Position numbers and translations under genes: made by a program. This document shows, in pieces, positions 23,337 to 41,848 of a stretch of 64,000 nt of DNA. Numbering within the stretch: the stretch's first letter is position 1; each line of letters opens with the position of its first letter. Below the pieces are notes generated by a model, which worked only from the letters and a program-made list of their open reading frames with translations, was not told the DNA's origin and searched no databases. The stretch is taken from assembly GCA_005217565.1 (NCBI GenBank), contig SJCO01000002.1, positions 404,192 to 468,191 on the forward strand, read 5' to 3'. The DNA is from Puteibacter caeruleilacunae. GTDB taxonomy: Bacteria; Bacteroidota; Bacteroidia; Bacteroidales; Prolixibacteraceae.

Positions 23337-26318
23337 TTATTTTAGTTTGATATTTAGTCCGACATAGCATGAAAACATGTCAGGATACCCCATAGTGACA
23401 TCTTCACAATTGAAGTATTTAATTTTATCAATAGAGAATACATTTTGCGCTCTGGCATAAATCTGTAAATTCTTGACTTTTAGCTTTTGTGCTAAATTTT
23501 CAGGAAAATTATAATAGACATTTAGGTTTCTTAGCTTTATGAAAGAACCATCTTTAATCCATTGTGTACTTCCTTGATAATTATTGGCATTTTCTAACGT
23601 CGAAAGACGAGGAGCATTTGCGATATCTTTTGTCTCTTCTGTCCAGCGAACTTTATCTTCCAGGTACCAGGTAGATATATTTGATTTTCCCTTTTTTAAC
23701 GGCTGATGTATACTACTCACATTTAAAACCTTAGTAATTCCACTTACACCTTGAAAAACCGCATCTACACCGAAACCTTTATATTCAACTCCAAAATTCA
23801 ATGCAAATAACATCTCAGGAACTGTCGTTGATTTGCCAATAGCGATTCTATCTTTCGAGTCAATCTTCCCATCGTTGTTCTGATCCTTATACTTTACATC
23901 TCCCGGTCGAACTACAGAAAAGGTCTGCTCTGGACTATTTTCAATATCGGCTTGATCATTAAAATATCCAATGGCCTCCAGACCGAAATATTGCCCTACT
24001 TTGTGACCTTTCCTATACAAATAGTCATAAGGCATGAATGCTTCCCCATTTTCGTCAATCTTACTATCATTTAAAGCCAGGTTCGCATTAATTTTATAAC
24101 GGAAATCTTTCTTCTGTTGGTACCAGCCTAAGTTCATCTCAACACCACTTCGGCTAACTTCACCAATATCACTTTTTGACAGATTAACACCTAGCATATC
24201 TGAAGTCTTATGATTGGTCACCAAAATATCGGTACGTCGATCATGATAGGCATCAATACTAAATGTCAAGTTCTTAAACATATCTAGGTCAATACCAACA
24301 TTTACCATTTGTGACGTTTCAGGATCCAGTCCATTCAAAGGAAGTCTACTTTCTTTGATACCCCTAACAACTGTTAAACTTTCGCCAAATGGATAACCTG
24401 AAGCTCCTGACCAATAATATTTTCCCAATCCATAAACTAAATTGTTATCAAGTGCTGATTTTCCCCATGACATCCTTAGCTTAAGTAAGTCAATTGCATT
24501 AGCATCCTCCATAAAGGATTCTTTGGCAATATTCCATGCAGCAGAAACAGCGGGATAAAATCGGAAACGATCTCCGTCTAAAAGTTTGCTAACACCAAAA
24601 TAGTTAGCAACTACATCAAGCATATATTTTCCTTTGTAATTATACCCTGCACTGGATAATATACTTTGACGATAGTTGGCCATATTTCGCCCAAATTCCT
24701 CATCCATCCATTGTCGATATCCCACCTTTCCAGTAATATGATGATCATTGAAAATTCGATCATATCCTAGTTGTGCCTGGAAATTTGCTCGGATTTGCTG
24801 TGCATATAATCCACTATCGGTTATCTGAAGTGTACTGTTGGTCCCAAATTGTTCACTTTCTTTATTACCTTCACCTGAAAGATAATTTATCTCATAAACG
24901 TAAGATTTACTCCCAACTTCTCTAAAAATCGCAAAATTATCATAGGCAACAGCAACCTCTGCATTTAATCCATTGATGAAGGATGAAAGGTCTTGTGTTA
25001 ACTTAAGATCAGCTGTTAAAAATCGACTATTATCTTTAACAAATCCAACATCTGCGATTTCAGCAATTGGATTCATTTTAAATAGATTGTTACTTCCCCA
25101 TTCCCCTGATGCTGTCTTAATAGGAAATGCTATAGCTGGAACTTTGTAGAGATTCTTGAATATTTTTTCAATTTCAGTATTAGGTCTATTATCCTCTTCA
25201 ATACGACCAAAAACGCCAAATTTTAACTGTGTCCCAGGATGAATATCTACATCTAAATTCATTCTCAAGTTCAACTTATAATTATGCAACTGAGAATCAT
25301 ATCTATCAGAATATTCTGTATACGTTTCGTTCAAAATTCCAAAACTGTTTTGATATTCAACCATTGAATAATAACGAGTCTTTTTTCCACCACCTCTTAA
25401 ACTCAGATTAAACTGATTGCTATGGCTGATATTACGTGTAGCTTCTTTTACCCATTCTACATTTGGATAAAGGTCTTGATCACCAGTTGCTGCAACATTT
25501 TTCCATTCTTCAATATCATATTGCGAAGGTAAACCATCATAATATAATGCCTCTTCCTGAGCCTCAATATAAGTTAAGCCATCCGCCATCTCTGGCTCAT
25601 TTATTGCAAAATTAATTCCATGTCGATAGTTAACATCAATATTAAAAGAGGTGTAATCCCCCCGTTTAGTATTGATTAGTATTACACCGTTAGCACCATT
25701 AGCTCCCCAAAGAGCTGTTCCTGCAGCATCTTTCAGGATCTGCACTGACTCAACCTCTTCTAACGATACGGTAGATAATTCTCGAGGAAAACCATCAACA
25801 ATAACCAATGGTTCCCCAGTACCTAGACCTCCGTTTCCTCGTATATTAAGACTCGCTGTTTCTTGCCATCCGACATTCTGTTTTGCATACAAACCCGCCA
25901 CAAGTCCATATAAAGCATTATCCAACTGCATGGTTGCGCTCTTAGCAATTAAATCTTTATCAATTGTAGATACTGCTTGAGTCATATCACCTCGTGATTT
26001 TCCCAATAATCCCATATCAATAAATGCATCATCTTGCTTATCTAAAACAACCTCCATTGTTGTATTTAGGGCTTTAACCTGTTTTCTAATTCCTCCAGCC
26101 GTTTGTATTTGAATATAGGCTCCTGGCTCAACATCCAATACAAAGATTCCATCTTCATTTGAGATACAGTTATTGCTGCTCTTGCCGACTTCCAAAACTT
26201 TTATACCTGCTAATGGCTTGCCTTGTGAATTTTTTATTACACCATTCAATGCCTCCTGCCCTATTGCATTAAGAGCAAGCATTAAAAAAGCTGTAATTGC
26301 ATATAATATTTTGTTCAT
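23337..26318 (-). CDS. SusC-type TonB-linked receptor (second pair)
   Basis: This 993-residue outer membrane receptor has a signal peptide (to about residue 20), a carboxypeptidase-regulatory-like domain (LNGVIKNSQGKPLAGIKVLEVG), then a plug domain with DNALYGLVAGLYAKQNVG and ILKDAAGTALWGANGANGV, and a barrel. The box usually reading LYG is LWG here. The N-terminal Ig-like domain is shorter and less like the usual DGxPLPGAxV form, so this receptor differs clearly from the 1090-residue one in the same operon. The two pairs may take different products of the same glycan. Confidence 0.95.
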   Translation of the reverse strand: MNKILYAITAFLMLALNAIGQEALNGVIKNSQGKPLAGIKVLEVGKSSNNCISNEDGIFVLDVEPGAYIQIQTAGGIRKQVKALNTTMEVVLDKQDDAFIDMGLLGKSRGDMTQAVSTIDKDLIAKSATMQLDNALYGLVAGLYAKQNVGWQETASLNIRGNGGLGTGEPLVIVDGFPRELSTVSLEEVESVQILKDAAGTALWGANGANGVILINTKRGDYTSFNIDVNYRHGINFAINEPEMADGLTYIEAQEEALYYDGLPSQYDIEEWKNVAATGDQDLYPNVEWVKEATRNISHSNQFNLSLRGGGKKTRYYSMVEYQNSFGILNETYTEYSDRYDSQLHNYKLNLRMNLDVDIHPGTQLKFGVFGRIEEDNRPNTEIEKIFKNLYKVPAIAFPIKTASGEWGSNNLFKMNPIAEIADVGFVKDNSRFLTADLKLTQDLSSFINGLNAEVAVAYDNFAIFREVGSKSYVYEINYLSGEGNKESEQFGTNSTLQITDSGLYAQQIRANFQAQLGYDRIFNDHHITGKVGYRQWMDEEFGRNMANYRQSILSSAGYNYKGKYMLDVVANYFGVSKLLDGDRFRFYPAVSAAWNIAKESFMEDANAIDLLKLRMSWGKSALDNNLVYGLGKYYWSGASGYPFGESLTVVRGIKESRLPLNGLDPETSQMVNVGIDLDMFKNLTFSIDAYHDRRTDILVTNHKTSDMLGVNLSKSDIGEVSRSGVEMNLGWYQQKKDFRYKINANLALNDSKIDENGEAFMPYDYLYRKGHKVGQYFGLEAIGYFNDQADIENSPEQTFSVVRPGDVKYKDQNNDGKIDSKDRIAIGKSTTVPEMLFALNFGVEYKGFGVDAVFQGVSGITKVLNVSSIHQPLKKGKSNISTWYLEDKVRWTEETKDIANAPRLSTLENANNYQGSTQWIKDGSFIKLRNLNVYYNFPENLAQKLKVKNLQIYARAQNVFSIDKIKYFNCEDVTMGYPDMFSCYVGLNIKLK

Positions 26319-26344: not shown

Positions 26345-28114
26345 TTACCATCCTGGATTCTGAACAAGTCCATACTTTTTATTTACTTCACTCATTGGGA
26401 AAGGAAGTAAGTACCAATTGTCTTTCCACAGATACTTTATGTCATCACGTACACTAACATTGTAGTTGAATTTCAATGGAGACTGTCCTGCTATGGTTGT
26501 TTCTAACATCTCCATCGGACGGCTTACCCAATCCCCTCGTTTATTTCTGACAATATCAAAATAACGGACTTCCTCCTGACCAAACTCTCTAGCACGTTCA
26601 TCCATTAGAAATTGCCACAAATCTTCACCAGGACTAACATCATTTGAGGTTACATCTGGAAGACCTGCACGATTTCGAACAATGTTCAAATAGTCGTAAG
26701 CATCTCTACCCTGTTGATCCTTTACAGTAGCTTTTCCAAGCTGATTCATTACTTCAGCCATCCCTAAATAGATTTCAGGAATTCGAATAAGTGGACAGGA
26801 ATATGGTTTATTATGCACTTCATTAGACTTATCACGAACAAACTTTCGGAATCCATATCCATATTGAGTTTTCTTACCCACTTTTGATCCAGAGCCATAG
26901 CCTTCACGGCCACCATTGTATACCTCGGACTTTCTTCCTTGCCACTTATCTCGATTCACCAGTAATGTTTCATACAATCGTGCATCACGAGTTGGATTAC
27001 CGTTATCATCAAAAAACGGATTTGCAGCATGAACAGGATTATTCCAATCAAAATCAGTTCCATCTTTCCATTGAAACATATCAGCATAATTTCCTCGAGG
27101 AGCTCCGTATCCACCTTCATACATACGAAATGGCTTATACCATCTTAAATAAATCGCCCATCTAAATGATACCATTATTGCTTCATGTGAACCTTTCACA
27201 AAATAACCTTTCACATAATCCTCTTGAGGATCTCCAGAATTCTCAATCTGATAGTAGTTCCCATTCTGATTGTTTAGCTCCAGGAATTCAATACCTGCCT
27301 TCATTGCAGTTTCCCATCGCTCCTGCTGGAAGTCTCCATACCAGGTCAATTTTAAATCAGCAGCTTCACCTGCCATATAAGGCTGAGTGCTATTAAACAG
27401 AGGACTTGCAGCAAAATGTAGCAATCTAAATTTTAAAGCCTTAGCAACAGCTGCTGTCATATGACCAAATTCCTCGTTAGTGGTTGTCCAAGGTAAATCT
27501 TTTGCAGCCTCGTCTAGCAATAATACTGTTGAATCAACAGTTTCCTCAACCGTCATTCGTGGCAGATTAAAATCTTCCTCTGCTGTATATGCATGATCAA
27601 TCAAAGGAACACCACCAAAGAATCTTAGCATCTGAATGTAATGCATGGCTATTATCACTTTGACTTCTGCTTTTCTGATTTTCTTCTCCTCTGCACTCAT
27701 ATCCGGAACTTTATCAACATTTTCCAAATAGATATGAGCCTTACGTATCCCAAAAGTTGGATCCCCCAGAATCTCTTTATGCGATATTTGATAAGGGAAA
27801 CAATGTCTTCCACTACTCGCAGTTACAGCTCCAGTTACCCATGATAACCTTTCTGTATAACCAATATCAGAGAAAACATCCAAAATAAATCCTTCAGGAT
27901 TATAGCCCCCCAGTGTAGGCATAAAATCTGGTAATGATTTATAAACTTGGTTTAATGCCTGATCTGCATATGCTTTCTGTGCAAAAACAGAATCAACAGA
28001 TAATTCATCACTTACCGGTTTTTCAAGAAAATCTTCTCCAAACTTTAAATCTTCACAGGCAATACTGCCAAACAAGATTATAAGTAACGCTATTATATTA
28101 TAATATCTTTTCAT
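26345..28114 (-). CDS. SusD/RagB-family lipoprotein (first pair)
   Basis: This 589-residue lipoprotein has lipobox Cys20 (FGSIAC), followed by SusD features: HYIQMLRFFGGVPLIDHAYTAEEDFNLPRMTVEE and a C-terminal ERAREFGQEEVRYFDIVRNKRGDW. It is encoded 11 bp after the 1090-residue SusC and should cap it. Much of its surface is rich in Trp/Tyr (RWAIYLRWYKPFRMYEGGYGAPRGNY), as expected for carbohydrate stacking. Confidence 0.95.
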   Translation of the reverse strand: MKRYYNIIALLIILFGSIACEDLKFGEDFLEKPVSDELSVDSVFAQKAYADQALNQVYKSLPDFMPTLGGYNPEGFILDVFSDIGYTERLSWVTGAVTASSGRHCFPYQISHKEILGDPTFGIRKAHIYLENVDKVPDMSAEEKKIRKAEVKVIIAMHYIQMLRFFGGVPLIDHAYTAEEDFNLPRMTVEETVDSTVLLLDEAAKDLPWTTTNEEFGHMTAAVAKALKFRLLHFAASPLFNSTQPYMAGEAADLKLTWYGDFQQERWETAMKAGIEFLELNNQNGNYYQIENSGDPQEDYVKGYFVKGSHEAIMVSFRWAIYLRWYKPFRMYEGGYGAPRGNYADMFQWKDGTDFDWNNPVHAANPFFDDNGNPTRDARLYETLLVNRDKWQGRKSEVYNGGREGYGSGSKVGKKTQYGYGFRKFVRDKSNEVHNKPYSCPLIRIPEIYLGMAEVMNQLGKATVKDQQGRDAYDYLNIVRNRAGLPDVTSNDVSPGEDLWQFLMDERAREFGQEEVRYFDIVRNKRGDWVSRPMEMLETTIAGQSPLKFNYNVSVRDDIKYLWKDNWYLLPFPMSEVNKKYGLVQNPGW

Positions 28115-28125
28115 TCTTTCTTAGT

Positions 28126-31100
28126 TTAAAAGGTGACCTGTACGCCCATACTATAGATTTTCATAACAGGATATGTATTGGTATCCCTTGTCAGTTCTCC
28201 TTCTGGATCAAATATTTTCAGATTGTCGATAGTCAGCAGGTTGTACCCCGTTAGTTTTACAGATAATTTTTTGGCACCAATTGCTTTAAGAATCCTCTTG
28301 TTGGATATATTATAGCCTAAAACCACATTTTTCAGTTTAATATATGATGCATCCTTTAACCAAACTCTTGATAAGGCCGTATTAGGACTACCCGTTGCAT
28401 TCGTGATACGTGGAAACTCAGCAGTTGCAGCAGTTGCTTCTGTCCATCTATTATCAGCTTGATATTGATACAAAGACTGTCCCTGGTAAAATGGACGCAT
28501 AAATGCATGCCCCATACGAATATCACACTCAGAAGCACCAGTCCAGCTCATTGATCCAAAAAATCCTTTATAATCGGCTCCTAAATTAAGACCAAAAGTA
28601 TATGCTGGTCTTTTGGGATTACCGATCTTCGTCACATCGTCACTATCAATAAGACCATCATCATTTAAGTCTCGATATTTAATATCTCCAGGATAAACCT
28701 GCCCCAATGTTGTCGGTAAGGTTTCCACTAAGTTACCTTCCGCATCAAAATCTTCGTTTGAATAAAATCCATCAGCAACATAACCAAAACGATCACCCAC
28801 CGAATGTCCGGTCCTTCTCATATATGGCTCATTAGGAGTAACCTCATCCATAAAGACTATCTCATTCTTTGTATATGAGATATTACCATCAACATAGTAT
28901 TTTACCTTATTAATTTGATCATTCCATTTCAAACTAATTTCATATCCTCGGTTATTCACTTTTCCCATGTTAACTGCAGGAAGTAGATTTGTTCCCAAAG
29001 CAAGCAAGGATGGAATAGTTGATCTTCGAATCAAAATATCCTTACGTTTTTCAATGAAATAGTCGGCGATTAATTTCAAACGATTATCGAAGAAAGTAGC
29101 ATCAAGACCGTAATTCTGCTTCAATGCCTTCTCCCACGTTACATTAGGATTACCCAGTCTAAGTTCATAGGCAGCTTTCTCATACTTTGTATTGGTCAGT
29201 CCAAACACATATCCATTATAATCGGCATAAGAAGAAGACAACGCATTTTTAGAATTGATTGCGTATGAATCAGGTAAGTATAAGAAACGATTCCCAGACA
29301 TATTGTCATTTCCAACCAAACCGACAGAAGCTCGCAATTTTAAATATGAGAGAACATCAGTTTTTGGAAAGAAAGATTCATCGGAGATGATGTATCCTAC
29401 AGAACCTGCAGGAAAGGTACCAAAGCGTTTACCTGGAGCAAAGTTTTCAGATCCATTATATCCAATATTAAATTCTGCCATATAACGTGTTTTGTAGTTA
29501 TATGTCGCTCGTCCAACAAGTCCAATATACCCAGTTGGCACATCACTATAATGAGAAGGGTAATATTTCTTAGTTTGGTTATATAAAACAAGTCCGCCAA
29601 TATTATGATCCCCGAAATCACGATTATAGCGTAAACTTCCCTCAACATACCAGTTACGTCCTCGACCTTTTCCTGCCTCTCCATAGGTACGTTCAAGGTT
29701 TTGTCCGCTAACGCGGTATACTACAGTCTTATCATACCCCTCATCTCCAACTTCCAATCCGGGATCTTTTAATTCTGAATAATAAAACGGAGTATAAGTC
29801 TCAACATGACCATTAACTTGTTGAGTATAATTATAGGTTGTATTGTAAGCACCCTTTACATTTGCCGACAATCCTTTAGTTAAGGCATCCAACTTCTGAA
29901 CCAAGTTCAAATCAAAATTCATCTTATTAGATAGGTTTCTGCGAGTTCCAGATCCATAATATCGATCTAGCACTGTATTGGCCATCTCAATACCAGGGAA
30001 TCGAGTAGGAAACGTTAAGATCTTTTTACCATCAATAATTCCAGGAGAAGCAAAAGGAGGAGACCAGGTAAACTGTTTCCAAATCTGCGATACTGGTTCC
30101 TTTCTGATCCCCACAATTCCACCAATATTCATCTTTAACTCAGTCGTAGGAGTCAAATTTACATCGAGATTCATCCGGTAGTTATAACGCTTATAAGAAT
30201 GGTTATTATCATAATCAAGTCCATCCAATTCTTTGAATAAACCATCCTGAAAAAGATATCCTACAGAAGTAAAATAGCGTACATTCTTTGTCCCTCCCGA
30301 GATATTGACATTGTGCTGTGTTTGAACAGCTGCCTTTTTAAGCAAATAATCCATCCAATCAATACTTGGGTAAATAATCGGATCATCACCTAATCTAAAT
30401 CTTTCTATATCATAAGGAGTAAATGTGAGCATATCTTCCGGGATCCCATCATTTCTTTGCATCTCATTATAAACAGTCGCATATGTATAACTATCAGCGT
30501 ACTTCAGCAAGCGTGTAGGCGCCTGTAAACCAACAGAAGAAGAGACTGAAATCTGAGCTTTCCCTTCAGTTCCACGCTTGGTAGTTACCAAAATAACTCC
30601 GTTTGCTCCACGAACTCCAAAAACAGCAGTTGCAGAAGCATCCTTTAACACATTAATAGATTCTATTTCGTTAGGATCCATTTGAGTGAAACTTCGTTCT
30701 ACTCCATCGACCAAGATTAGTGGAGCCGCTCCTCCTTCTGATAAAGAACCTACACCTCGTACAAAAATCTGAGCGTCATCAGCACCTGGCTGACCACTAC
30801 GCTGAATACTAGAGATTCCCGGGATCTGACCAGCTAACGCATTAGCGACACTTCCACTTGGAGACTTCAATAAAGTTTTGTTTTCAATTCTGGAAATAGC
30901 ACCGGTAAGTGTAGCCTTCTTTTGAACACCATAAGCAACTACGGTAACATCGTCAAGCTCTTCTGCTATTACCTTAAGTACAATATTTATTGTTCCCTGA
31001 CTATTAACAGCAATTTCTTTAGTCTCATAACCAATAAAGGAGACAACTATAATGTCATCTGATTTTACATTAATCGTAAACTCTCCATTACCATTGGTTG

Positions 31101-31398
31101 CTGTCCCCATGGAAGTTCCTTTGATAAATATTGTAGCTCCAGGAATAGGATTTCCGTCTTCATCATTTACCGTACCAGTCAATTTCTTTTGATCGGTAAC
31201 AAAGGAAACTACTTGTTTAACATCTTCCTTTGCTAGATATTGATCTTGCTTATCCGGAAGCATTACTTTCTCATTCGCAGCCGAAGCTTGAATACTCATG
31301 TGCCCAATAAAAAGAGCAAAAACAATGAGCTTCATTACAGAAGTAACCTTTCTGTCGCTACTTAGAAAGCACCGTAAGTAAAATATTGATTTCTTCAT
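28126..31398 (-). CDS. SusC-type TonB-linked receptor (first pair)
   Basis: This 1090-residue receptor starts the operon. A long N-terminal signal region (membrane segment near residues 21-40) precedes a carboxypeptidase-D regulatory-like domain (KLTGTVNDEDGNPIPGATIFIKG, about 72-95), the TonB-box-like region (EELDDVTVVAYGVQKKATLTGA), a plug with VLKDASATAVFGVRGANGV, and the barrel ending in an aromatic strand (SMGVQVTF). It forms the import channel for the glycan. Expression is probably controlled from the promoter and paired repeats at 31455-31522. Confidence 0.96.
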   Translation of the reverse strand: MKKSIFYLRCFLSSDRKVTSVMKLIVFALFIGHMSIQASAANEKVMLPDKQDQYLAKEDVKQVVSFVTDQKKLTGTVNDEDGNPIPGATIFIKGTSMGTATNGNGEFTINVKSDDIIVVSFIGYETKEIAVNSQGTINIVLKVIAEELDDVTVVAYGVQKKATLTGAISRIENKTLLKSPSGSVANALAGQIPGISSIQRSGQPGADDAQIFVRGVGSLSEGGAAPLILVDGVERSFTQMDPNEIESINVLKDASATAVFGVRGANGVILVTTKRGTEGKAQISVSSSVGLQAPTRLLKYADSYTYATVYNEMQRNDGIPEDMLTFTPYDIERFRLGDDPIIYPSIDWMDYLLKKAAVQTQHNVNISGGTKNVRYFTSVGYLFQDGLFKELDGLDYDNNHSYKRYNYRMNLDVNLTPTTELKMNIGGIVGIRKEPVSQIWKQFTWSPPFASPGIIDGKKILTFPTRFPGIEMANTVLDRYYGSGTRRNLSNKMNFDLNLVQKLDALTKGLSANVKGAYNTTYNYTQQVNGHVETYTPFYYSELKDPGLEVGDEGYDKTVVYRVSGQNLERTYGEAGKGRGRNWYVEGSLRYNRDFGDHNIGGLVLYNQTKKYYPSHYSDVPTGYIGLVGRATYNYKTRYMAEFNIGYNGSENFAPGKRFGTFPAGSVGYIISDESFFPKTDVLSYLKLRASVGLVGNDNMSGNRFLYLPDSYAINSKNALSSSYADYNGYVFGLTNTKYEKAAYELRLGNPNVTWEKALKQNYGLDATFFDNRLKLIADYFIEKRKDILIRRSTIPSLLALGTNLLPAVNMGKVNNRGYEISLKWNDQINKVKYYVDGNISYTKNEIVFMDEVTPNEPYMRRTGHSVGDRFGYVADGFYSNEDFDAEGNLVETLPTTLGQVYPGDIKYRDLNDDGLIDSDDVTKIGNPKRPAYTFGLNLGADYKGFFGSMSWTGASECDIRMGHAFMRPFYQGQSLYQYQADNRWTEATAATAEFPRITNATGSPNTALSRVWLKDASYIKLKNVVLGYNISNKRILKAIGAKKLSVKLTGYNLLTIDNLKIFDPEGELTRDTNTYPVMKIYSMGVQVTF

Positions 31399-31454
31399 AA
31401 ATTATTTAGTTTGTTTATCGAAAACTTCATTCATTTCATTGTAAAAACTACTGT

Positions 31455-31522
31455 CAAATCTAAGCCGATACGTCAAAAAATGACATAGGTATTTGATCCA
31501 AACAACCAATACATTTGGTTCA
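31455..31522 (-). promoter_or_regulatory. Promoter and paired direct-repeat operator of the susCDsusCD operon
   Basis: Minus-strand -7 box TAGATTTG (31462-31455) matches TAnnTTTG, but no good -33 element is present, as at activator-dependent promoters. After exactly 28 bp upstream lie two 10-bp direct repeats, ATTTGATCCA (31491-31500) and ATTTGGTTCA (31513-31522), written on the plus strand with starts 22 bp apart. The same layout with the same distances occurs at 35303-35370. The AraC-type domain of the hybrid regulator encoded nearby is the likely ligand (inference). The leader to the ATG is about 50 bases. Confidence 0.75.
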
Positions 31523-31579
31523 AAATCAACTTTATTTAACTGATTATAAGCATCAATCAAGAAAACTCATCTCGAATTA

Positions 31580-31603
31580 ACTCCCTTGTATCACCAAGGG
31601 AGT
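31580..31603. terminator. Hairpin downstream of the heparinase-like gene
   Basis: ACTCCCTTG pairs perfectly with CAAGGGAGT around a 6-base loop, but only a weak T tract follows on the minus strand. It could end the lyase transcript or insulate the susC promoter. Confidence 0.45.
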
Positions 31604-31763
31604 ATTCCTAGTTTTTTAAAAGTAGAAGCGCTACAATACGAATATTGAATATCGGGTAATCATTAATCTTTCTCCATTATCTCGTGAGTATATTTCACAA
31701 CACAATCAATTCATCAAGCTATACTGAATTCCAGCATGCTATTCTGTATCCTTTGATCAATAT

Positions 31764-33890
31764 TTACAGGATATTCATCCGCACAACACCTTTTTTAGCA
31801 TTAAGTAGAATCTTATATGTTTTATCATTGATGATTAAAGTGAAACTTAATTCTCCATTGTTTTTCGTAACAGATGCTTCAATGTTATCCGGTTTCTGGT
31901 TCTTCTTGTAAGGAACTAGTGCCGTTAGAAAAGTTAATTCAGGATCTGACGATTTCTTTTCGGAACAATAACTCCAGGCTGGACGCTGTTCCTTTCGCAA
32001 AATATCATATGATATCCAACCTTCTTCTTTTTCCAATTTAATGTTATTCTCAGTCGAAAAATTCCTGATAATCAAGTTAGCCCCTTTATCAAACTCGGTT
32101 GCAACTGTTAAAGTCTTCTCATCCATTCTATGCTTGCAAGGGACTAAGTGAAAATGACTACGAACTTGACCTTCGGCATTACCAATTGCCTGATCATAGA
32201 TTAAGAAATACTTTTTATCAATAAACAGAGTAGTTCGGCGATGTACCAGATTGTCATAGCTCTGATTTTCATTTACAAGACAGGTAAGATTTGTAGTATC
32301 TTTCCATAAAATGTGCTTTGAAGCGATTTTTATATTCTCATTATTTAACGTAATTGTCTGATGTGCAACTGTACTTTTGAACCATTCTCTCCATTTGGCT
32401 TCCTTAGGATCATCACTTTCATAAATATAAGAGCCTGAATCAATCATAAAATTTCTACCATAAGCATATAACTCAAAACTCTGATTATCAATCTGTGAAT
32501 GCCATGAATAATTAGGATTATTCTTCATCGATAGAAATACAGCATCCGGAGTCCATGCAGACCTAAAGAAATAGAAACCACTCAATGGATAATCAACAGA
32601 TGTTTTAGCTGGTGGATTTCCGTATTTCCCTTGAGATGCAATAAAGTCAAAATAAGGCAATTCAGGTGCATACTTCGATACCTGTTTTCTAAATATTTCT
32701 GCTGCATTTCTGTGTTTCCATGAATCTCCAAACTGACTTATGGTATTATCAGGGAACATCTGATACACATACACTTCGGCCATCTTCACCAATCGCTCAT
32801 AAAAATCCGTTGGAAGATACTTTTCGTATCCATATTCTTTAAATTTGACATACGCATCTGCAAAAATACTTAAGTACATGCTGTGGTAACTAAAGATCAG
32901 CTCGTTGTTCATTCCATCCGGATAAATTTCAATAAACATCCTTTTGGGGATCACCGTTAAAGCATCATTAGTCCATTCTTTCGACTTTTTAAATTCAGGA
33001 AAGTTAATTCCATTTTCAAAAACAGTAACTAATTCGCCCAACAGATGATTTCCCTTCTCGGAATAAACAGTTCTGACGTGCTCTGCGTTCAAATAAAAAC
33101 TACTTAGGAAATAAACCAATGTTTTCGCATCAAACAACTCTTCCTTAATAAAATAAGGAAGTACATTGGTTAATCGTTGACATCTGAAATAGGTTTCCAT
33201 CCCACGAACCAAATACCATGGATCATCATCTTCTACAGGTAAGATATCTTCAGCCAAATCAACCAATTCATATTGCCATTCATAAAAATACTTGTCATCT
33301 CCTGATAGATGGTAGGCCTTAGCAAGTGCTTCCCACCAAAGCAAACGCTGAAACTGAAATGCCCATTCCCGATCCTTTATTTCTTTCCCATCATGAAATG
33401 CAGGTCCTATCCAATCAATGTTACCTCCCCTAAAAACAAGAGGATGTGCATCCTTATTCCCCCTAAAGTAATGGTTTAACGCACTTTCTGATGCTTCCTT
33501 TTCTTTCTCTGATAGCTTTGTTACTGTTGGAACCTGATATTTTTTTACATGCTTAAAGTAATAAAGAAGTTCTTGTTCTACGGTATCCCAATCTTCTGCT
33601 TCGACTGCAATCTTAACCTTTTCGAATCCAGTATATTCAAGATTCAACCATTTTGATAGTTGTTTTATATCAAAATTCGAGTCTGCAGGTAATTTATGTT
33701 GCCAATCTTTTTTAAAGCGCTTTAATTCCTTCTGAACAGATTTAATTTGCTTATCTGTTGCTGTTTGAGCAAATCCCAAATCTACATTCAGAAAAAAGCA
33801 TATAACCAGCAAAACTAACGATACATTTATACCAGTTATTTTACATATCTGATTGCTGGATCCTCTTCTATTATCATTTATAAAATTCAT
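31764..33890 (-). CDS. Heparinase II/III-family polysaccharide lyase
   Basis: This 708-residue secreted enzyme has a membrane/signal segment near residues 22-42. The N-terminal (alpha/alpha) toroid carries REWAFQFQRLLWWEALAKAYHLSGDDKY and EKGNHLLGEL, and a Tyr/His pair in ELIFSYHSMYLSIFADAY that may hold catalytic residues. The C-terminal beta-sandwich shows the family pattern FMIDSGSYIYESD followed by WFKSTVAHQTITLNN. Such enzymes cut uronic-acid polymers (heparin, heparan, hyaluronan-type or alginate) by beta-elimination. PL12 or a related family fits best, but the exact family and substrate are not decided. GH88 lies 71 bp upstream on the same strand and would process the unsaturated ends. 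Confidence 0.88.
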   Translation of the reverse strand: MNFINDNRRGSSNQICKITGINVSLVLLVICFFLNVDLGFAQTATDKQIKSVQKELKRFKKDWQHKLPADSNFDIKQLSKWLNLEYTGFEKVKIAVEAEDWDTVEQELLYYFKHVKKYQVPTVTKLSEKEKEASESALNHYFRGNKDAHPLVFRGGNIDWIGPAFHDGKEIKDREWAFQFQRLLWWEALAKAYHLSGDDKYFYEWQYELVDLAEDILPVEDDDPWYLVRGMETYFRCQRLTNVLPYFIKEELFDAKTLVYFLSSFYLNAEHVRTVYSEKGNHLLGELVTVFENGINFPEFKKSKEWTNDALTVIPKRMFIEIYPDGMNNELIFSYHSMYLSIFADAYVKFKEYGYEKYLPTDFYERLVKMAEVYVYQMFPDNTISQFGDSWKHRNAAEIFRKQVSKYAPELPYFDFIASQGKYGNPPAKTSVDYPLSGFYFFRSAWTPDAVFLSMKNNPNYSWHSQIDNQSFELYAYGRNFMIDSGSYIYESDDPKEAKWREWFKSTVAHQTITLNNENIKIASKHILWKDTTNLTCLVNENQSYDNLVHRRTTLFIDKKYFLIYDQAIGNAEGQVRSHFHLVPCKHRMDEKTLTVATEFDKGANLIIRNFSTENNIKLEKEEGWISYDILRKEQRPAWSYCSEKKSSDPELTFLTALVPYKKNQKPDNIEASVTKNNGELSFTLIINDKTYKILLNAKKGVVRMNIL

Positions 33891-33961
33891 TGCTGTAATA
33901 AATTTAGAAATTAACAGGTTAGCATTCTTTAGTCTTCTCTTTAAAAATGCGGAAAGTACCC

Positions 33962-35134
33962 CTAAAATTTTCTTAGCTCACCATATCTCCTCATTGCCTC
34001 TAAATAATAATAATCAGCATAAACCAGAGGGACATCTACTTCTGAATTGTGTGGATAGCTTCCTGTACTATGCTTCAGTATAAAGTAATTGTTACTCCCC
34101 TCTTCTGCAAGGTATTTCGGTGAGGATAGACTAATTAATATCTTTTCAGCAATATTCATATAGTTCTCTGAATTATCAACATAATTCTGAAGTTCCAATA
34201 ATGCAGAAGCAATAATTGCTGCTGCTGAAGCATCTCGAGGAACATCTGGAATACCTGGTGCATCAAAATCCCAATAAGGGATACAATCATCACATCTCGA
34301 TATTTGGGGCAATACAAAACCTGCCACCTCTTTTGCCCTCTTTAGAAAAGCTTTATTCCCTGTCTCTCTGTAACACATCGTATATCCATATAAAGCCCAA
34401 GCCTGTCCACGTGCCCAAGAAGAACTATTGGAGAATCCCTGATAAGTTCCTTTCGAAACAGGGGCACCGCTAATCGTATCGTAACTTACAACATGGTATG
34501 TACTAAAATTATCACGAAAGTGATTTTTTAAGGTAGTATTAGCATGTCTAACTGCAATATTGCTGTATAAAGAATTTCCAGTTTCTTTTGAAGCCCAAAA
34601 AAGCATCTCAAGATTCATCATATTATCAATAATTACAGGAAACTCCCACTCTCCAAAATCCCATGATCGAATTGCACCCACCTTAGGATTATATCGTGAG
34701 ATTAAAGATTGCGCACCTTTAAGCAATAATTCCCTATAGTCTTTGCCTGAAGTTTCATCAAGTCCATTTCCAAAGCTGCAATAAAGCATGAATCCAAGGT
34801 CATGGGTACCTGTGTTATATTCCTGTCCTTTCAATAAAGAATTATAGCTACTCGCCAATTGCTTGAGTTCTTCATCGCCAGTCATTTTATACATTAACCA
34901 TAGATTCCCAGGATAAAAACCACTCGTCCAATTGGCTGGCTTACCCAAATGAACTTTACCTGTTGGAGTTGTACTTCGTGGAAGTAATCCAGATTGCTCG
35001 TATTCTTTGGCACCTTCTAGCAATTGAACATGTGCTGTTCGCAAACCATTTTCGTACCACTCTGGCACACCATTCTGACAAGCTGTTAAAACTGCTATTC
35101 CCACCAATAAAACCAATAGTTTTATTCTATTCAT
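33962..35134 (-). CDS. GH88 unsaturated glucuronyl hydrolase lipoprotein
   Basis: This lipoprotein has about 390 residues from the preferred ATG at 35134, which gives MNRIKLLVLLVGIAVLTAC directly; the frame is open to 35194. The two family aspartates are in TGTHDLGF (Asp112) and PVIIDNMMNLEML (Asp170). WTSGFYPGNLWLMY and SWARGQAWALYGYTM are further GH88 markers. The enzyme hydrates the 4,5-double bond left by the lyase and releases the terminal unsaturated uronate from oligosaccharides in the periplasm. It heads a two-gene operon with the lyase, driven from the promoter at 35303-35370. Confidence 0.93.
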   Translation of the reverse strand: MNRIKLLVLLVGIAVLTACQNGVPEWYENGLRTAHVQLLEGAKEYEQSGLLPRSTTPTGKVHLGKPANWTSGFYPGNLWLMYKMTGDEELKQLASSYNSLLKGQEYNTGTHDLGFMLYCSFGNGLDETSGKDYRELLLKGAQSLISRYNPKVGAIRSWDFGEWEFPVIIDNMMNLEMLFWASKETGNSLYSNIAVRHANTTLKNHFRDNFSTYHVVSYDTISGAPVSKGTYQGFSNSSSWARGQAWALYGYTMCYRETGNKAFLKRAKEVAGFVLPQISRCDDCIPYWDFDAPGIPDVPRDASAAAIIASALLELQNYVDNSENYMNIAEKILISLSSPKYLAEEGSNNYFILKHSTGSYPHNSEVDVPLVYADYYYLEAMRRYGELRKF

Positions 35135-35302
35135 TTTTGCATCATTTTTACGAACCATTTTCTTCTTCATTACAACATCATAGCAATAATTCAAGCTATG
35201 AGTTAATGAAACATTTCTATTCTGGCCCTAATTACTACTTGGTGCTGAAAGGCACCGAATACTATAATAAAAGCTTTCTCACATTACCTTAAAAGCCTAA
35301 TA

Positions 35303-35370
35303 CAAAAGTATTTTTAATAGTAATTCTAGAGAGTGGACATTTGGTTCATACATGAATGACAATTGGTTCA
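35303..35370 (-). promoter_or_regulatory. Promoter and paired direct-repeat operator of the GH88-lyase operon
   Basis: Minus-strand -7 box TACTTTTG (35310-35303) is followed upstream, after exactly 28 bp, by direct repeats ATTTGGTTCA (35339-35348) and AATTGGTTCA (35361-35370), starts 22 bp apart as written on the plus strand. The distances are the same as at the susC promoter at 31455-31522. No -33 match is seen. The leader is about 163 bases to the preferred ATG. The rest of 35135-35485 holds nothing else recognizable. Confidence 0.78.
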
Positions 35371-35485
35371 AACCCGCATTATTAAAAGGTTTTATGCCAT
35401 AACAACGATTCTATTTTTCGAACACTCTAAATCTCTTTAATTCTTAAATACAAATCATAAAAGGTAGCTAATTCTCATTGTCAAA

Positions 35486-38400
35486 CTATTGTTTGGGATT
35501 TAGGTATTCCGAAGGCAACATTCCTATTTCCTCTTTAAAACATTTTCTAAAATAAGCTACATCCTGAAAACCTACTTTATCTGCGACTTCTGATATCGAT
35601 AGTTTCTTTTCTTCAAGATATTTTGCAGCGGTTTTAACTTTCATATAGCGTAAAAATTCTACTGGAGTTTTGCTAGTAGTTTCTTTTATCTTCCGATACA
35701 TTTTCGATTTACTAAGACCAACCTGTGTATAGATCTCTTCTACTGTCAAATTGGGATTGCTAATATTCTCTTCAATATAGGTAACAATCTTTCGAAGTAA
35801 TTTTTCATCAGCTGGCAACATTCCTCTATCCTGAGCAGGAAGTTTTATTTCTTCACTATACTTATCTCTTAGGAGTCTGGAATGACGAATTAGGTTATCA
35901 ATTTTTATTTTAAGAATTTCAAGACTAAAAGGCTTTGTCATGTAGTCTTCTGCCCCTGTTGATAGACCTTTTTTAATATCTTCCTCCGCTATCTTTGCCG
36001 TTAGAAGAATGATGGGAATATCCTTAAACTCGTCACTACTTTTTACGTTATTACAGAAACTTATTCCATCCATTACCGGCATCATTACATCGGAGATTAT
36101 AAGGTCTGGACGATGCTTCGAAATTAATTCCAGGGCTTGCTTTCCATGATATGCACTAGTCACATTAAAATGCGGTGATAGATAATTTTTAATAAACATG
36201 GAAAGCTCTTTATTATCCTCCACTAAAAGAATATGCCCATTTTTCTGTCCTTTTTCATTAGCCGGAGTAACTTTCTTTGCCTCCTCTTTTTCATCCTCAT
36301 GAGAGATCTGCTGTCTATTTTTTGTCGACTCAATTATCTTAACATCACTCCGACCCTGAAAATGTTCATTCCCTTTTTTCAGCCACGTTTTAAAGACTGT
36401 GCCCTGATCTATCTGACTTTCCACTCCAATACGTCCATTATGCTGTTCCAAAATTGCTTTAGAAAAAGAAAGACCTATCCCCATACCTCCAGAAGTCCAT
36501 TGTACCTTTGAATCTGTCTGGTAATAACGATCAAATATTCTACCTGTCTGTTCAGCTGTCATTCCTGTACCCGAATCCTTAACAGAAATACATATCTGTT
36601 CGGGAGATTCAGAAATTTCAAGTGTTATTTCACCGTCTTCTGGCGTATACTTAAATGCATTGGAAAGTAGATTATAATAAACATGTTCTAATTGGGTTGG
36701 ATCAGCCCAAATAGCGATATCTTCATTCTTATACACAAATGATAAATTGATTCCATGCCGTTTTGCTAACTGTTTAAACGACTTATGGATTGGGGTGAGA
36801 TATTGAACCATATTAATAGGCTGCACCAATAACTGCAAATAACCATTTTCCATTTTTTGAAAGGTCAAAAGCTGTTTTACTAACCGAACAAGGCGTTGCG
36901 TATTTTGCCTCACATATTCCAGATTGGTCGACAAAAAGAGATCTGTCTGAGTCTTTTCAATCATACTTTCCAAAGGAGCAGTGATCAATGACAATGGAGT
37001 GAAAAATTCGTGAGATACATTTGCATATAACTTATTTCTCATCTCACTGAATTCCTTTGCTTTTTCAACTTCTATCGTTTTAATTTTGAGTTTATTTCTC
37101 ATACTCTGTCGATAGAGAAAGTATGCAAAAATTAAACTGATTATCATCAGACCGAACAATACATATAACAATATAGCCCACCAAGTAAGCCACCAAGGAG
37201 GAAGAATCCTCACTCTAACATGTTTATCCTGATGATTCCATATTCCATCATTATTCAAAGCCTTAACTCGAAATACGTACTCACCTGCTGGGAGTGATGA
37301 ATATGAAGCATATCGTTTGTTTTGAACGTCATGCCACTCTTCGTCAAATCCCTCTAAAATGTACGTATACTTATTGTGTTCCGGATCAATATAGTTTAAT
37401 GCAACAAATTCAAATGTAAAACGTGACTGATCATGATTTAACACTATTTCCTCTGTTTCATCAAGAGGTTTTGAAAGAATATTCGTTCCATCATTGGGTA
37501 AGACTCTATCATTATGAACCTTTAATCCCTGAAATATTACTGATGGAACAAAAGTGTTAATTCTAATATTAGCAGGGTAAAATGAGATGAATCCATCAAT
37601 ACCACCAACACAAATCTCGTTATTATGGCGGAGAATTAAACTATTGAGTGTAAATTCACGAATAGGAATACCTGAAAAATAGTCGTAATTGTTTATTTCA
37701 TAGGTCTCCTTATTAAAAGAACACACACCTTGAGGATGTGAAATCCATAAATTTCCAATCTTATCCTTGACAATCTTATTAAATGTATTGGAAGGAAAAC
37801 CGTCATTAGTGAGGTATTGTTTCAACTTTTGCATTTCGGGATTATACTGAATAAGTCCACCGCCTTTACTTGCTAACCAAAGATCTCCGTTTTTATCTTC
37901 ATATATTCCATTAATAGCCATCGGCTTGACAAAATCTTCGCTCAAATTTGTAAGATGATGTTTAAAACTATTTGTATTGGGACAAAATTCATCAAGAATT
38001 CCACTACGAGTCCCTATCCACATACGATCTTTTCTATCCTTAAATAGTGTTATTATCATATTCTCTGACAGACTGCTTGAGTCATCAGCATTACTCTTAT
38101 ATGAAACAAAGGTTTCTTCTTTTGGATTATAGACTATAATTCCATCATTGTTTGTTCCAATCCACAACTGCTTATCCTTATCAAAGCATAAATATTCTAA
38201 GTTATTAACAGGTAATTCTTTTCCTAGCTTAGAGCTACTCTGAACAATCGTCAATTTTTTTGTTTTAGGATCGAACACCCTCACTCCATTAAACGAAGTT
38301 GCGACCCAAAGCCTTTCTTCATCATCAAAAATCATTGATTTTATGGGAGGAATCATGCCATCGGTCTCATTTCCAATTTTAAAATGACAAAAGACATTAG

Positions 38401-39565
38401 TTTTCCTCTCCAGCATATTCAAATCACCGTCTTCACTTCCAATCCATAAATTTCCATTCTTATCTTCAGCAAAGGCACTTATCAGGTTACTTGCTAATCC
38501 TGATAAGTTTTTTGAGTAATGTTTAAAGCCTTTATGATTTTCATATAGTTGAAGTACACCATCAAAATAGGTTCCAATCCATACATTATTATTTTCATCG
38601 ATACATAAAGACCGAATAGATTTATTATCTGGTGTAACTCCTGTTGTTTGGGCAATATTTACTTGAGAAAATCTCTTCGTCTTTGTTGAAAGTAAGTAGA
38701 GTCCATTATACGTGCCCAACCAAATATTCCTATTATCATCGTACCATCCACAACGCACCTTTTTGATTTGTTCTGTATATATTTTTCTAATTTGGACATT
38801 CTCTTCGGAAAGTTTATAAAAACCTTCCAGGCAAAACATCCCATACCCATCTGTTCCAAGCCACAAATTATCGTTTTCATCTTCAACTATAAGAGTCACT
38901 GAGTTTAATGGCGTAGAAATGTTTGGTAATGAAAAATTCTCCAAACATGTTTTTGACTCATTAAATAACTTAAGTCCATTATTTTGTGTGCCTACCCAAA
39001 TTGTACCTTTATGATCCTCATAGATCGAAGTAATAAAGTAATTTTCGTCCTCTGTTGTTTTACAATTACTTACAGGAATAAATCCACCAGATTTTTCATC
39101 ATATAAATTCAGACCTTGAACTGTTCCCACCCATATTCTATTTCTACTATCGCAAAAAAGCTTAACTACTGAATTATGGGAAATAGTATTCTTTTCATTC
39201 TGATCTCTTCCAAACCTGATGAATGAGTTCGTCAGCTCGTTATATAGACAAAGTCCACCTTCAGTTCCTACCCATATGCGATTATTTCGATCTTCAATGA
39301 TTGAATAGATAAAATTGTTAGATAATGAGGTTGTATCATTAGGTTTATTGACGAATTTCTCAAAGTTATGTCCATCGAATCGATTTAATCCATTTCTTGT
39401 TCCAAACCACATATATCCTTTGTGGTCTTTCAAAGATGTCAATACAGAAACCTGACTTAATCCTTCTTTAATCGAGAACTGTTTTATTAGGAAATCGTTG
39501 GCTAGTACCATTTTGGATACAACCACAATCGTTAAAATAAAAATTACACACACAAGCCTTCTCAT
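35486..39565 (-). CDS. Hybrid two-component system regulator (one-piece sensor kinase and AraC regulator)
   Basis: This protein of about 1359 residues starts at the preferred ATG 39565 (MRRLVCVIFILTIVVVS); the frame is open to 39595. Residue numbers below count from 39595. The periplasmic sensor holds two beta-propellers of reg_prop repeats (WFGTRNGLNRFDG, WVGTEGGLCLYN and similar), then a Y_Y_Y domain (about 720-800). A membrane span near 803-828 leads to a kinase (His about 862 in NVSHEFFTPLSLI), the ATPase (GGMGIGLSFSKAILEQHNG), a receiver (Asp about 1167 in IISDVMMPVMDG) and an AraC helix-turn-helix domain (1260-1365). This class controls glycan loci by binding a released oligosaccharide in the periplasm. 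It sits between the GH88-lyase operon and GH172, both likely targets. Confidence 0.96.
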   Translation of the reverse strand: MRRLVCVIFILTIVVVSKMVLANDFLIKQFSIKEGLSQVSVLTSLKDHKGYMWFGTRNGLNRFDGHNFEKFVNKPNDTTSLSNNFIYSIIEDRNNRIWVGTEGGLCLYNELTNSFIRFGRDQNEKNTISHNSVVKLFCDSRNRIWVGTVQGLNLYDEKSGGFIPVSNCKTTEDENYFITSIYEDHKGTIWVGTQNNGLKLFNESKTCLENFSLPNISTPLNSVTLIVEDENDNLWLGTDGYGMFCLEGFYKLSEENVQIRKIYTEQIKKVRCGWYDDNRNIWLGTYNGLYLLSTKTKRFSQVNIAQTTGVTPDNKSIRSLCIDENNNVWIGTYFDGVLQLYENHKGFKHYSKNLSGLASNLISAFAEDKNGNLWIGSEDGDLNMLERKTNVFCHFKIGNETDGMIPPIKSMIFDDEERLWVATSFNGVRVFDPKTKKLTIVQSSSKLGKELPVNNLEYLCFDKDKQLWIGTNNDGIIVYNPKEETFVSYKSNADDSSSLSENMIITLFKDRKDRMWIGTRSGILDEFCPNTNSFKHHLTNLSEDFVKPMAINGIYEDKNGDLWLASKGGGLIQYNPEMQKLKQYLTNDGFPSNTFNKIVKDKIGNLWISHPQGVCSFNKETYEINNYDYFSGIPIREFTLNSLILRHNNEICVGGIDGFISFYPANIRINTFVPSVIFQGLKVHNDRVLPNDGTNILSKPLDETEEIVLNHDQSRFTFEFVALNYIDPEHNKYTYILEGFDEEWHDVQNKRYASYSSLPAGEYVFRVKALNNDGIWNHQDKHVRVRILPPWWLTWWAILLYVLFGLMIISLIFAYFLYRQSMRNKLKIKTIEVEKAKEFSEMRNKLYANVSHEFFTPLSLITAPLESMIEKTQTDLFLSTNLEYVRQNTQRLVRLVKQLLTFQKMENGYLQLLVQPINMVQYLTPIHKSFKQLAKRHGINLSFVYKNEDIAIWADPTQLEHVYYNLLSNAFKYTPEDGEITLEISESPEQICISVKDSGTGMTAEQTGRIFDRYYQTDSKVQWTSGGMGIGLSFSKAILEQHNGRIGVESQIDQGTVFKTWLKKGNEHFQGRSDVKIIESTKNRQQISHEDEKEEAKKVTPANEKGQKNGHILLVEDNKELSMFIKNYLSPHFNVTSAYHGKQALELISKHRPDLIISDVMMPVMDGISFCNNVKSSDEFKDIPIILLTAKIAEEDIKKGLSTGAEDYMTKPFSLEILKIKIDNLIRHSRLLRDKYSEEIKLPAQDRGMLPADEKLLRKIVTYIEENISNPNLTVEEIYTQVGLSKSKMYRKIKETTSKTPVEFLRYMKVKTAAKYLEEKKLSISEVADKVGFQDVAYFRKCFKEEIGMLPSEYLNPKQ

Positions 39566-39624
39566 GGTAACAAATATAGAAATCTTTGTTATCAATCTGC
39601 ATTAATAGTTTCTATATGTATAAA

Positions 39625-39664
39625 CAAAAGCAATCCTGACAAGGTATATCTCCTGTCAGGATTG
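39625..39664 (-). terminator. Terminator of the GH172-type gene
   Basis: A perfect 11-bp stem (CAATCCTGACA / TGTCAGGATTG) at 39631-39664 is followed on the minus strand by CTTTTGT. It separates the GH172-type gene from the hybrid regulator. Confidence 0.78.
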
Positions 39665-39700
39665 TCACATTGCAGCTATCTCATATAGCTTAATAAAAAC

Positions 39701-41848
39701 TTACGACTTATCAGCTGCACTTTTTAAAACAACACAATCTAGTCCAAATAAATTTCCAACAGCATCTTCGCTCTTACCTACAACTTCTACCTTTATCTTA
39801 AAAACATTTCCATCAGGTGTATGAACACCAAGATCGATAGCAGATGCAGGCTTTAAAGATTTGCCATAACCATCCCAAGCCTTTTTCACTAGTTTTCCAT
39901 TTACAAAAATATTGAGTTTTCCATAGTTTGGTGATACAGCCGGATAAAGGAAGATCCTTCTATCCTCATATTGTTCGTTAAAAGTAAAGACAGCAGAATC
40001 TCCTATCTTTGCCGAATTAACGCCAAAAACATGAGCATTACTGAATTTACTATCTTCCTTTAAATTTCGCGTCTTTAACGACTTCCACTTAAGCGTAGGT
40101 GACACCGAAACTCCATTTAAGCTTTCCAATTCAATAGCATCTTTAATGTAAAAAACATTTCCCTTTTGTTCCAACTGAGTCTTAGCAAAAGCCTCTACAT
40201 CCTCAGGTTGCGGAACAGGAGCTGCGGCTTGCTCTGACATTGGTACCCTGTTATGTTTTACTCCCGGTTCACCATACCAAAATGTAACCAATGCATACTG
40301 AAGAAAAGCATCAGGAGATGAAACCATATTATATGCCTCCATGTCAAACTTAAAACGACTACGGAAAGGAGTAGCGTCTAGTGAGCGCGTTCGTGTACAT
40401 ATATTATACCCTCTGGTAAACGGTCCTGAGCGACCTGCATGATCTCGTTCCTTTGGATGATGCTGTCCTCCAACCCTAATATTTCCTAAAAAAGGAGCAG
40501 AGAACTCATCTTCACGCTTAGGAACCTGTCCTCCAGCCCATCCATAATAATCTTCCGATCCCGTTCCAAAATGAGAAGGAAATCTTCGATCAATATCTTC
40601 ATCAACATAAATCTTCTCATCACCTTCTCCCCACCATGACCAATGAGGATTTAGCACGATAAGGTTATCTCCAACATGAATCCCACGACCTTTAATATCT
40701 ATGAAATTCATATCAAAAACAGGTCTGGGAGCATACGGCAAATCAGTCCACCAATTTGCATGAAAATGAAGTGACGTATCATCCCATTTCCAGCTTGATG
40801 TATTCACTTTTGCCTTAACCACAACAGGATGCTTGGCCAAATTAATAATACGAAGCTCCCCCTTCTCTTTGTAAGGCATAATCCAACGACATACCATTGT
40901 TCCATCCGACTTCACTTCACGTTCCCACATTTTATAGGGATCTATGGCATTCACGTTCGCGAAAAAATCTCCCAGCGGACACCAAACAGTTTGCTCTCCG
41001 TCAAATGACATTTCCAAGACTGTTGAACGTAAAGCCTGAGGAATATTAGCTGCATCTAAATGAAATTCAAGATGTCGCACTGCATTATTACCGTCAGGTA
41101 ATCTTAGAGAAGCACTCTTACCACTCTGAATAGCTTCGCTTATAGTAAAAGCCTCGCCATCATCAAAGTTTTCTGGCTCTAATATACTATTACCAACCTT
41201 TGCTAAATCATCCTTATATTTCGATAGCAACTCAGGCTTAAATGTTTCCACTGTAGTCCCCTCGTCATAAGCTCTATAGTTGATAATATAGAAAAATGAG
41301 GCATCACTCATCGTTATTTTACAACTCTTAGCGTAGGAAATAGGCAAATACAAATCTCCTGCTCTATTTGTATATTGAGCAAAAGGCTCTTTTACCTCAC
41401 CCTTACCTGTTACCAATTCAATTAGATTCGTTTTAATGGTTGGTACTGTATCTCCATCCAGATAGAACATTATATCCTTTCCAACCCGATTTTTAAGGGA
41501 GCGAAAGAAATATGGCGACCAGATTCTCGTAATCACACCTGGTCCGTTATGGTCTAAAAGAACAACTTCCTTTCTTCCATTTTTCTCCTCAACACCAAGA
41601 CCATAGCCACAGTCGCCATTTGCAAACCAACCTTTTCGATCATCCGGAGTTTTTGCAGCTCTGTTATAGCTACTTGTCTGCAATGATTTATACTCATTCT
41701 TCGGCCAATGAGTTATAACTGAGCGATCAGCCATTTCATACAAAAGAGATTTAAATGTTACATCTGGTTTTGTTCCAACAGAGCACTGCGAGGCAATAAG
41801 TATTATCAAAATACTCACACCTACATACCCTAAAATCGATTTTCTCAT
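39701..41848 (-). CDS. DUF2961-family (GH172-type) secreted glycoside hydrolase
   Basis: This 715-residue protein has an N-terminal signal (residues 1-22, ending near SQC). The DUF2961/GH172 jelly-roll regions are NGPGVITRIWSPYF (about residues 100-113) and FGTGSEDYYGWAGGQ (about 424-438), the latter carrying an acidic residue important in this family, plus a C-terminal domain with VFTFNEQYEDRRIFLYPAVSPNYG. Characterized members act on fructofuranosides or arabinofuranosides. Here it lies upstream of the regulator of a uronic-acid polymer locus and could remove a furanose side chain. The substrate is inference. Confidence 0.85.
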   Translation of the reverse strand: MRKSILGYVGVSILIILIASQCSVGTKPDVTFKSLLYEMADRSVITHWPKNEYKSLQTSSYNRAAKTPDDRKGWFANGDCGYGLGVEEKNGRKEVVLLDHNGPGVITRIWSPYFFRSLKNRVGKDIMFYLDGDTVPTIKTNLIELVTGKGEVKEPFAQYTNRAGDLYLPISYAKSCKITMSDASFFYIINYRAYDEGTTVETFKPELLSKYKDDLAKVGNSILEPENFDDGEAFTISEAIQSGKSASLRLPDGNNAVRHLEFHLDAANIPQALRSTVLEMSFDGEQTVWCPLGDFFANVNAIDPYKMWEREVKSDGTMVCRWIMPYKEKGELRIINLAKHPVVVKAKVNTSSWKWDDTSLHFHANWWTDLPYAPRPVFDMNFIDIKGRGIHVGDNLIVLNPHWSWWGEGDEKIYVDEDIDRRFPSHFGTGSEDYYGWAGGQVPKREDEFSAPFLGNIRVGGQHHPKERDHAGRSGPFTRGYNICTRTRSLDATPFRSRFKFDMEAYNMVSSPDAFLQYALVTFWYGEPGVKHNRVPMSEQAAAPVPQPEDVEAFAKTQLEQKGNVFYIKDAIELESLNGVSVSPTLKWKSLKTRNLKEDSKFSNAHVFGVNSAKIGDSAVFTFNEQYEDRRIFLYPAVSPNYGKLNIFVNGKLVKKAWDGYGKSLKPASAIDLGVHTPDGNVFKIKVEVVGKSEDAVGNLFGLDCVVLKSAADKS

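Follow-up and report, generated by a model that had tools for sequence, protein, structure and literature searches.

Which protein controls the operons of a glycan locus, and through which sites in the DNA, is the question raised by a polysaccharide utilization locus of Puteibacter caeruleilacunae that lies on the minus strand of a 64,000-nucleotide stretch (hereafter the window), taken from an 8.0-Mb genome in 220 contigs. Read from high to low coordinates, the locus encodes a DUF2961 protein, a hybrid two-component system (HTCS) protein, a GH88 family protein, a heparinase III-like lyase and then SusC, SusD, SusC and SusD. Two regions, one preceding the GH88 gene and the other the first SusC gene, carry paired sites in a single promoter-operator layout that exceeds chance; these regions are probably the operators of the local HTCS, which would switch on the GH88-lyase and susCD-susCD operons together.

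Two operons share one promoter-operator layout

Upstream of the first SusC-like transporter gene (28126–31398), which heads one of the two putatively controlled operons, the -7 box lies at 31455–31462 (forward CAAATCTA, coding strand TAGATTTG), the promoter-proximal half-site at 31491–31500 (forward ATTTGATCCA, coding strand TGGATCAAAT) and the distal half-site, 22 bp from the proximal one, at 31513–31522 (forward ATTTGGTTCA, coding strand TGAACCAAAT). The other operon begins with the GH88 gene (33962–35194, first ATG at 35170; family assigned with Pfam), and its -7 box is found at 35303–35310 (forward CAAAAGTA, coding strand TACTTTTG), followed by a proximal half-site at 35339–35348 (forward ATTTGGTTCA, coding strand TGAACCAAAT) and, again 22 bp away, a distal half-site at 35361–35370 (forward AATTGGTTCA, coding strand TGAACCAATT); all of these genes and elements are on the minus strand. 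At both promoters, exactly 28 bp separate a TAnnTTTG -7 box from WTTGRTYCA, which is present twice at a 22-bp period; the centres of the proximal copies lie 34 and 33 bp above the respective boxes. An earlier interpretation made from the letters of the window (the sequence-only reading) had proposed these coordinates, gaps, periods and boxes, all of which hold to the base, as well as the lack of a good -33 element; inspection by eye likewise found no TTTG or TTG about 19–21 bp above either box. The two copies of the GH88 operator are identical at 14 of 18 bases, so that the repeated unit may exceed the 11-mer TTTGRTYCAAA put forward in that reading, and three of the four half-site copies share an asymmetric extension, TGAACCAAWTGT.

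The likeness between the two regions was measured by searching both for two pairs of 10-mers, all four alike and the pairs equally spaced (18–26), and by repeating the search on 1500 dinucleotide-preserving shuffles. This procedure recovers exactly the sites described above, with 51 of 60 identities and an equal gap to the box in both regions, a score attained by none of the shuffles (mean 40.2, standard deviation 1.7, maximum 49); the equality of the gap, with a probability of about 0.001 per position, stands outside the shuffle score. Taken one by one, half-sites show no enrichment in the window, where 55 matches at no more than one mismatch compare with 53 expected, and the information thus resides in their arrangement.

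The arrangement is also unique. In the 8.0-Mb genome, the pair pattern, which was derived from the two places, occurs without mismatch only there; at one or two mismatches it is found at 15 other places, nine of which were opened and all proved to lie within open reading frames (ORFs) of 227–802 amino acids. Such a genome scan had been suggested in the sequence-only reading. With up to three mismatches, the own genome contains 112 matches vs 69 for a reversed control, so that loose matches carry little meaning. A combined scan for the pair and a box 27–33 bp from it (in the register of the core, where the distance here is 30) covered 140 family genomes and returned two matches, each of them at this locus, and none for the reversed control.

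An HTCS is encoded beside the sites

The HTCS gene (35486–39565, minus strand, counted from the first ATG) adjoins the GH88 operator, and no other regulators flank it. Its product unites in one chain the Pfam domains Reg_prop, Y_Y_Y, HisKA, HATPase_c, Response_reg and HTH_18, the combination that defines an HTCS, and thus consists of a periplasmic propeller/Y_Y_Y sensor, kinase modules, a receiver and an AraC-type helix-turn-helix. The protein is complete, with a HisKA domain that contains its His box in the sequence VSHEFFTPL, a HATPase and a receiver with its Asp. The nearest solved chain to the sensor is 4a2l (E 2.9e-108), which we take to be BT4663, a heparin sensor.

In the mechanism proposed for this protein, binding of a glycan fragment to the periplasmic sensor would lead the HTCS to phosphorylate its own receiver. 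The two AraC-type domains of one dimer would then bind both half-sites, two helical turns apart and on the same face of the DNA, and the bound dimer would sit immediately upstream of the polymerase, the promoters having a -7 box and no -33 element; in this way, the HTCS may switch on the GH88-lyase and susCD-susCD operons together.

Repeats beside HTCS genes recur at 21–22 bp

In 2013, motifs were predicted for 16 of the 36 HTCS of Bacteroides thetaiotaomicron, all of them direct repeats with a mean spacing of 21 bp, which was explained by a dimer whose monomers occupy one DNA face two turns apart; HTCS genes are, moreover, usually located with their targets (PMC3878776). The sites described above conform to this pattern both in spacing, with direct repeats 22 bp apart at both promoters, and in position, beside an HTCS gene and upstream of operons that contain susC/susD or linked enzymes. 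One correction to the sequence-only reading follows: the layout is not peculiar to this locus and represents the general HTCS arrangement, the repeat spacing of which was already published.

This generality was examined in 51 stretches fetched from the same genome in addition to the window, which together comprise 51 HTCS genes including the present one. The figure for this 8-Mb genome, 51 or more, compares with 36 HTCS in B. thetaiotaomicron (PMC3878776). Near these genes, this locus included, the upstream regions that have a TAnnTTTG box contain 100 overlapping windows with a 21-bp repeat and 26 with a 22-bp repeat, vs 4.6 and 4.4 in shuffles; merged into repeats, they number 21 at 21 bp and seven at 22 bp, two of the seven belonging to this locus. 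Intergenic repeats near the same genes amount to 24 at 21 bp and 12 at 22 bp (2.2 and 2.4 in shuffles). Upstream of SusC, 21 bp leads in the own genome (8 of 25 regions), where 22 bp is represented by this locus only; the two spacings are found in 8 and 6 of 17 such regions in family genomes, and in 9 and 8 of 41 at named Bacteroidia loci. Finally, when the HTCS loci here and in other Bacteroidia are considered with this locus excluded, a TAnnTTTG box is found 20–39 bp below 26 of the 66 repeats with 21–22-bp spacing vs 11 of 78 with control spacings (Fisher p = 5e-4, an optimistic value for reasons given below).

With this peak at 21–22 bp and the recurring distance to the box beside HTCS genes, the two sites read as a regular HTCS operator pair: the arrangement is of a known kind, and the half-site sequence is a new, putative member of it. 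Neither this half-site nor a distance from HTCS repeats to a -7 box was found in the literature text available to us, a comparison that leaves the published HTCS logos aside; the accessible part of one further paper (PMC12125979) concerns a subject other than HTCS sites.

Additional regularities were seen among the repeats of other loci. Spacings of 16 and 24 bp are overrepresented as well among the intergenic repeats near HTCS genes of the own genome, with 21 and 20 cases vs about 2 in shuffles, which perhaps reflects an element with an 8-bp period. A directional consensus for HTCS half-sites was considered and set aside: with patterns picked after inspection, CCAT marks both members of the repeat in 7 of 63 cases on the coding strand vs 0 of 63 on the other. 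In one locus (L149, G000:C70:15300-35200), two HTCS genes encode similar DNA-binding domains and are accompanied by similar 21-bp repeats (TTAGATATTG..., CTTTCGATATTACGGCA), and there repeat and regulator seem to have been duplicated together.

Assignment of the sites and rival explanations

The assignment of the paired sites to the local HTCS draws on position, architecture and uniqueness, from which binding is predicted. The sequence-only reading had named this protein as the likely activator, a proposal partly supported by its HTCS domains, by the 21–22-bp repeats that are the rule beside HTCS genes, by the recurring box distance and by the location of all opened near matches in ORFs; its action would probably be activation and not repression. 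Comparison did not tie the half-site proposed there, TTTGRTYCAAA, to this regulator: in 140 family and 393 order genomes no relative exceeds 53% identity in the DNA-binding domain, and homologues are not significantly enriched for the pair.

Several results weigh against the assignment. No close orthologue of the HTCS was found: identity in the DNA-binding domain reaches at best 53% among 140 genomes of the family and 50% among 393 of the order, and over the full length it peaks at 35–36% among the 393 order genomes and 395 genomes of the class. Enrichment of the half-site pair at 28 loci of full-length homologues (L252, whose HTCS passes the cut-off, being counted among them) relative to 159 other HTCS loci is not significant (p = 0.09); p becomes 0.05 when the own-genome paralogue L124 is added (29 loci), 0.15 without L248 and 0.13 in a comparison of forward and reverse strands. 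The most similar DNA-binding domains (L207–L209, 54–55 of 108 residues identical) are accompanied by other repeats, 22 bp apart in two of three cases. The half-site core TTTGnnnCAAA is itself partly palindromic, and as a consequence the core alone leaves orientation unfixed. As to the protein, its receiver loop reads KDIP instead of the S/C-H-I-P that marks the alpha3-beta4 loop of autoinhibited HTCS, KDIP being seen once among the 51 own-genome HTCS (two patterns left 10 and 13 of these unread), and its His box, HEFFTP, is one of three misfits to the form HE/D-x-R/K-T/N-P that fits 48 of the 51. Across HTCS, the loop has S or C in 84% and H in 91%, and deviations likely relieve inhibition of the DNA-binding domain (PMC11253607); because KDIP and HEFFTP both depart from the usual residues, control by phosphorylation may differ in this protein. 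Lastly, the repeat-to-box statistic is optimistic because spacings of 16, 20, 23 and 24 were excluded from its control and some repeats entered repeatedly via several boxes, divergent regions or related loci.

One candidate link was rejected. L248, the locus of a distant full-length homologue, ranks first of 165 other HTCS loci for the TTTGAACCAAAT pair (20/24), a rank that hinted at conservation of the half-site together with the regulator; wider searches then gave closer homologues, the homologue set was not significantly enriched, and the rank does not count as support. At about 10747–10810, L248 carries three TGAAC repeats (TGAACAAAA, TGAACAAAA and TGAACGAAA) at 21 and 22 bp before SusC, within a pectin-type locus (GH88, GH43, GH28).

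Because 50 further HTCS are encoded in the own-genome stretches read and the half-site has no comparative tie to the local protein, the pairs might be operators of a regulator encoded elsewhere, either another HTCS or an AraC-type protein acting in trans. We consider this unlikely: HTCS genes are usually located with their targets (PMC3878776), and none of the places opened has the pair at another promoter, so that a regulator acting in trans would target this locus alone. The complementarity of the TTTG and CAAA arms (by eye, paired at four of five positions in two copies and at three of five in the other two) suggests another possibility, namely that each 11-mer TTTGnnnCAAA is a palindrome for a dimer of a non-AraC regulator, perhaps a repressor, with the 22-bp period setting two dimers on one face. 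The asymmetric extension and the 14/18 agreement between the GH88 copies would better suit the two-helix footprint of an AraC-type monomer, and both spacing and box distance match those of HTCS repeats; we accordingly give little credence to palindromic binding.

A live minority reading retains the local HTCS and alters its action, with the protein binding the sites without phosphorylation, as a phosphorylation-independent switch, or repressing. The KDIP loop in place of S/CHIP is compatible with such behaviour, as are published accounts of weaker inhibition in deviating HTCS and of BT2391 as a repressor (PMC11253607). Against this, the sites lie above the -7 box without covering it, in promoters that lack a -33 element, which is the position of an activator, and both the His and the receiver Asp are present, leaving repression or a phosphorylation-independent switch rather improbable. 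That the shared layout is a chance match, as the ordinary frequency of single half-sites might lead one to suppose, is scarcely credible when 0 of 1500 shuffles reach its score and the two matches in 140 genomes both fall at this locus. The best available reading is that the local HTCS acts through the paired direct repeats, as predicted from the arrangement of sites and genes.

Other features of the locus

The DUF2961 gene occupies 39701–41848, the lyase gene 31764–33890, the first SusD-like gene 26345–28114, the second SusC-like transporter gene 23337–26318 and the second SusD-like gene 21659–23329, all on the minus strand, and the susCD-susCD block thus spans 31398 down to 21659. The nearest solved chain to the lyase is heparinase III (E 3.8e-95), and its score is below the NCBIfam HepC cut-off (402 vs 700 bits). 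The order HTCS-GH88-lyase also occurs in two other loci (L249 and L250).

In the stretch that separates the lyase gene from the susC operator, a perfect inverted repeat of 9 bp around a 6-base loop (31580–31603, no strand assigned) is a possible end of the GH88-lyase transcript; it has no T-run directly after it and is absent from the output of the terminator scan, the sole terminator-like site of which falls within the lyase gene. Right after the lyase stop codon, at about 31712–31749, lies a repeat with a 20-bp period (ATACAGAATAGCATGCTG / ATTCAGTATAGCTTGATG, 14/18) and no nearby -7 box. The count of sigma-70-type promoters is not above that of shuffles. A third operator at the DUF2961 gene was rejected: the one half-site-like match there (42074–42082, one mismatch) has by eye no partner 22 bp off, and no repeat is listed for the gene. 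A structured leader RNA of GH88 was likewise dismissed (z = -1.4; 13 of 200 shuffles fold equally well), and an Rfam search of 31000–42300 returned no match.

Discussion

The closest precedent for this locus is the HTCS_Hep regulon of B. thetaiotaomicron BT4663, in which two operons, BT4662-59 and BT4658-52, one of them a susCD operon and one starting with BT4658, have related direct repeats (PMC3878776); a receiver-DNA-binding domain fragment of BT4663 binds the bt4662 promoter, and does so more strongly if phosphorylated (PMC11253607). As in that system, a single locus here comprises two operons, a common direct repeat and an HTCS with a propeller sensor, together with a heparinase III-like lyase and a GH88 protein. 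BT4658 is presumably a GH88 enzyme as well. As a difference from HTCS_Hep, no sulfatase was seen among the scanned genes of the locus. Nor is the HTCS here an HTCS_Hep orthologue: when it is compared with the HTCS of L242, a locus with a sensor piece 82% identical to 4a2l, 33 of 108 residues of the DNA-binding domain agree, and a repeat at L242 has a different sequence (TTCAACAA, 21 bp apart).

Other predicted motifs are those of HTCS_Man (16+5 bp), HTCS_Rgu-1 (12+9 bp) and HTCS_Rgu-2 (14+6 bp) (PMC3878776). In the available description, these resemble the present pairs in that susC-containing operons are preceded by sites in tandem at a distance of two helical turns, and differ in a period of 20–21 bp vs 22 bp here; the comparison concerns spacing, not sequence.

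LytTR-type operators are direct repeats of similar period and share the two-turn spacing of the sites described here; they differ in repeat sequence (ACCGTTYAATAA), and the regulator beside the two promoters here is of AraC type. Elsewhere in the window, a 21-bp direct repeat at 9352–9390 (CATTTACCGTTTAATAAT / CCTATACCGTTCAATAAA, 14/18) lies between a dihydroorotate dehydrogenase-like gene (8229–9215, minus strand) and a histidine kinase and LytTR response regulator pair (9450–13389, plus strand), and looks like a LytTR operator.

For P. caeruleilacunae, these results provide a concrete operator candidate for a single HTCS gene out of the 51 or more in the genome, in a manner that does not depend on orthologues. 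Their most useful by-product is that counts over many HTCS loci add a tendency in the distance to the promoter to the published repeat spacing, a tendency that would make it easier to match regulators with glycan loci in Bacteroidia that have received little study. It is possible, if on the whole doubtful, that HTCS promoters across Bacteroidia obey one geometric rule, in which a 21- or 22-bp direct repeat has its proximal copy centred about 24–38 bp above TAnnTTTG and the half-site varies freely with the DNA-binding domain, this locus being an instance at 22 bp whose HTCS would have lost the usual inhibitory contact. Were such a rule true, pairs of regulator and operon would become readable from sequence without orthologues.

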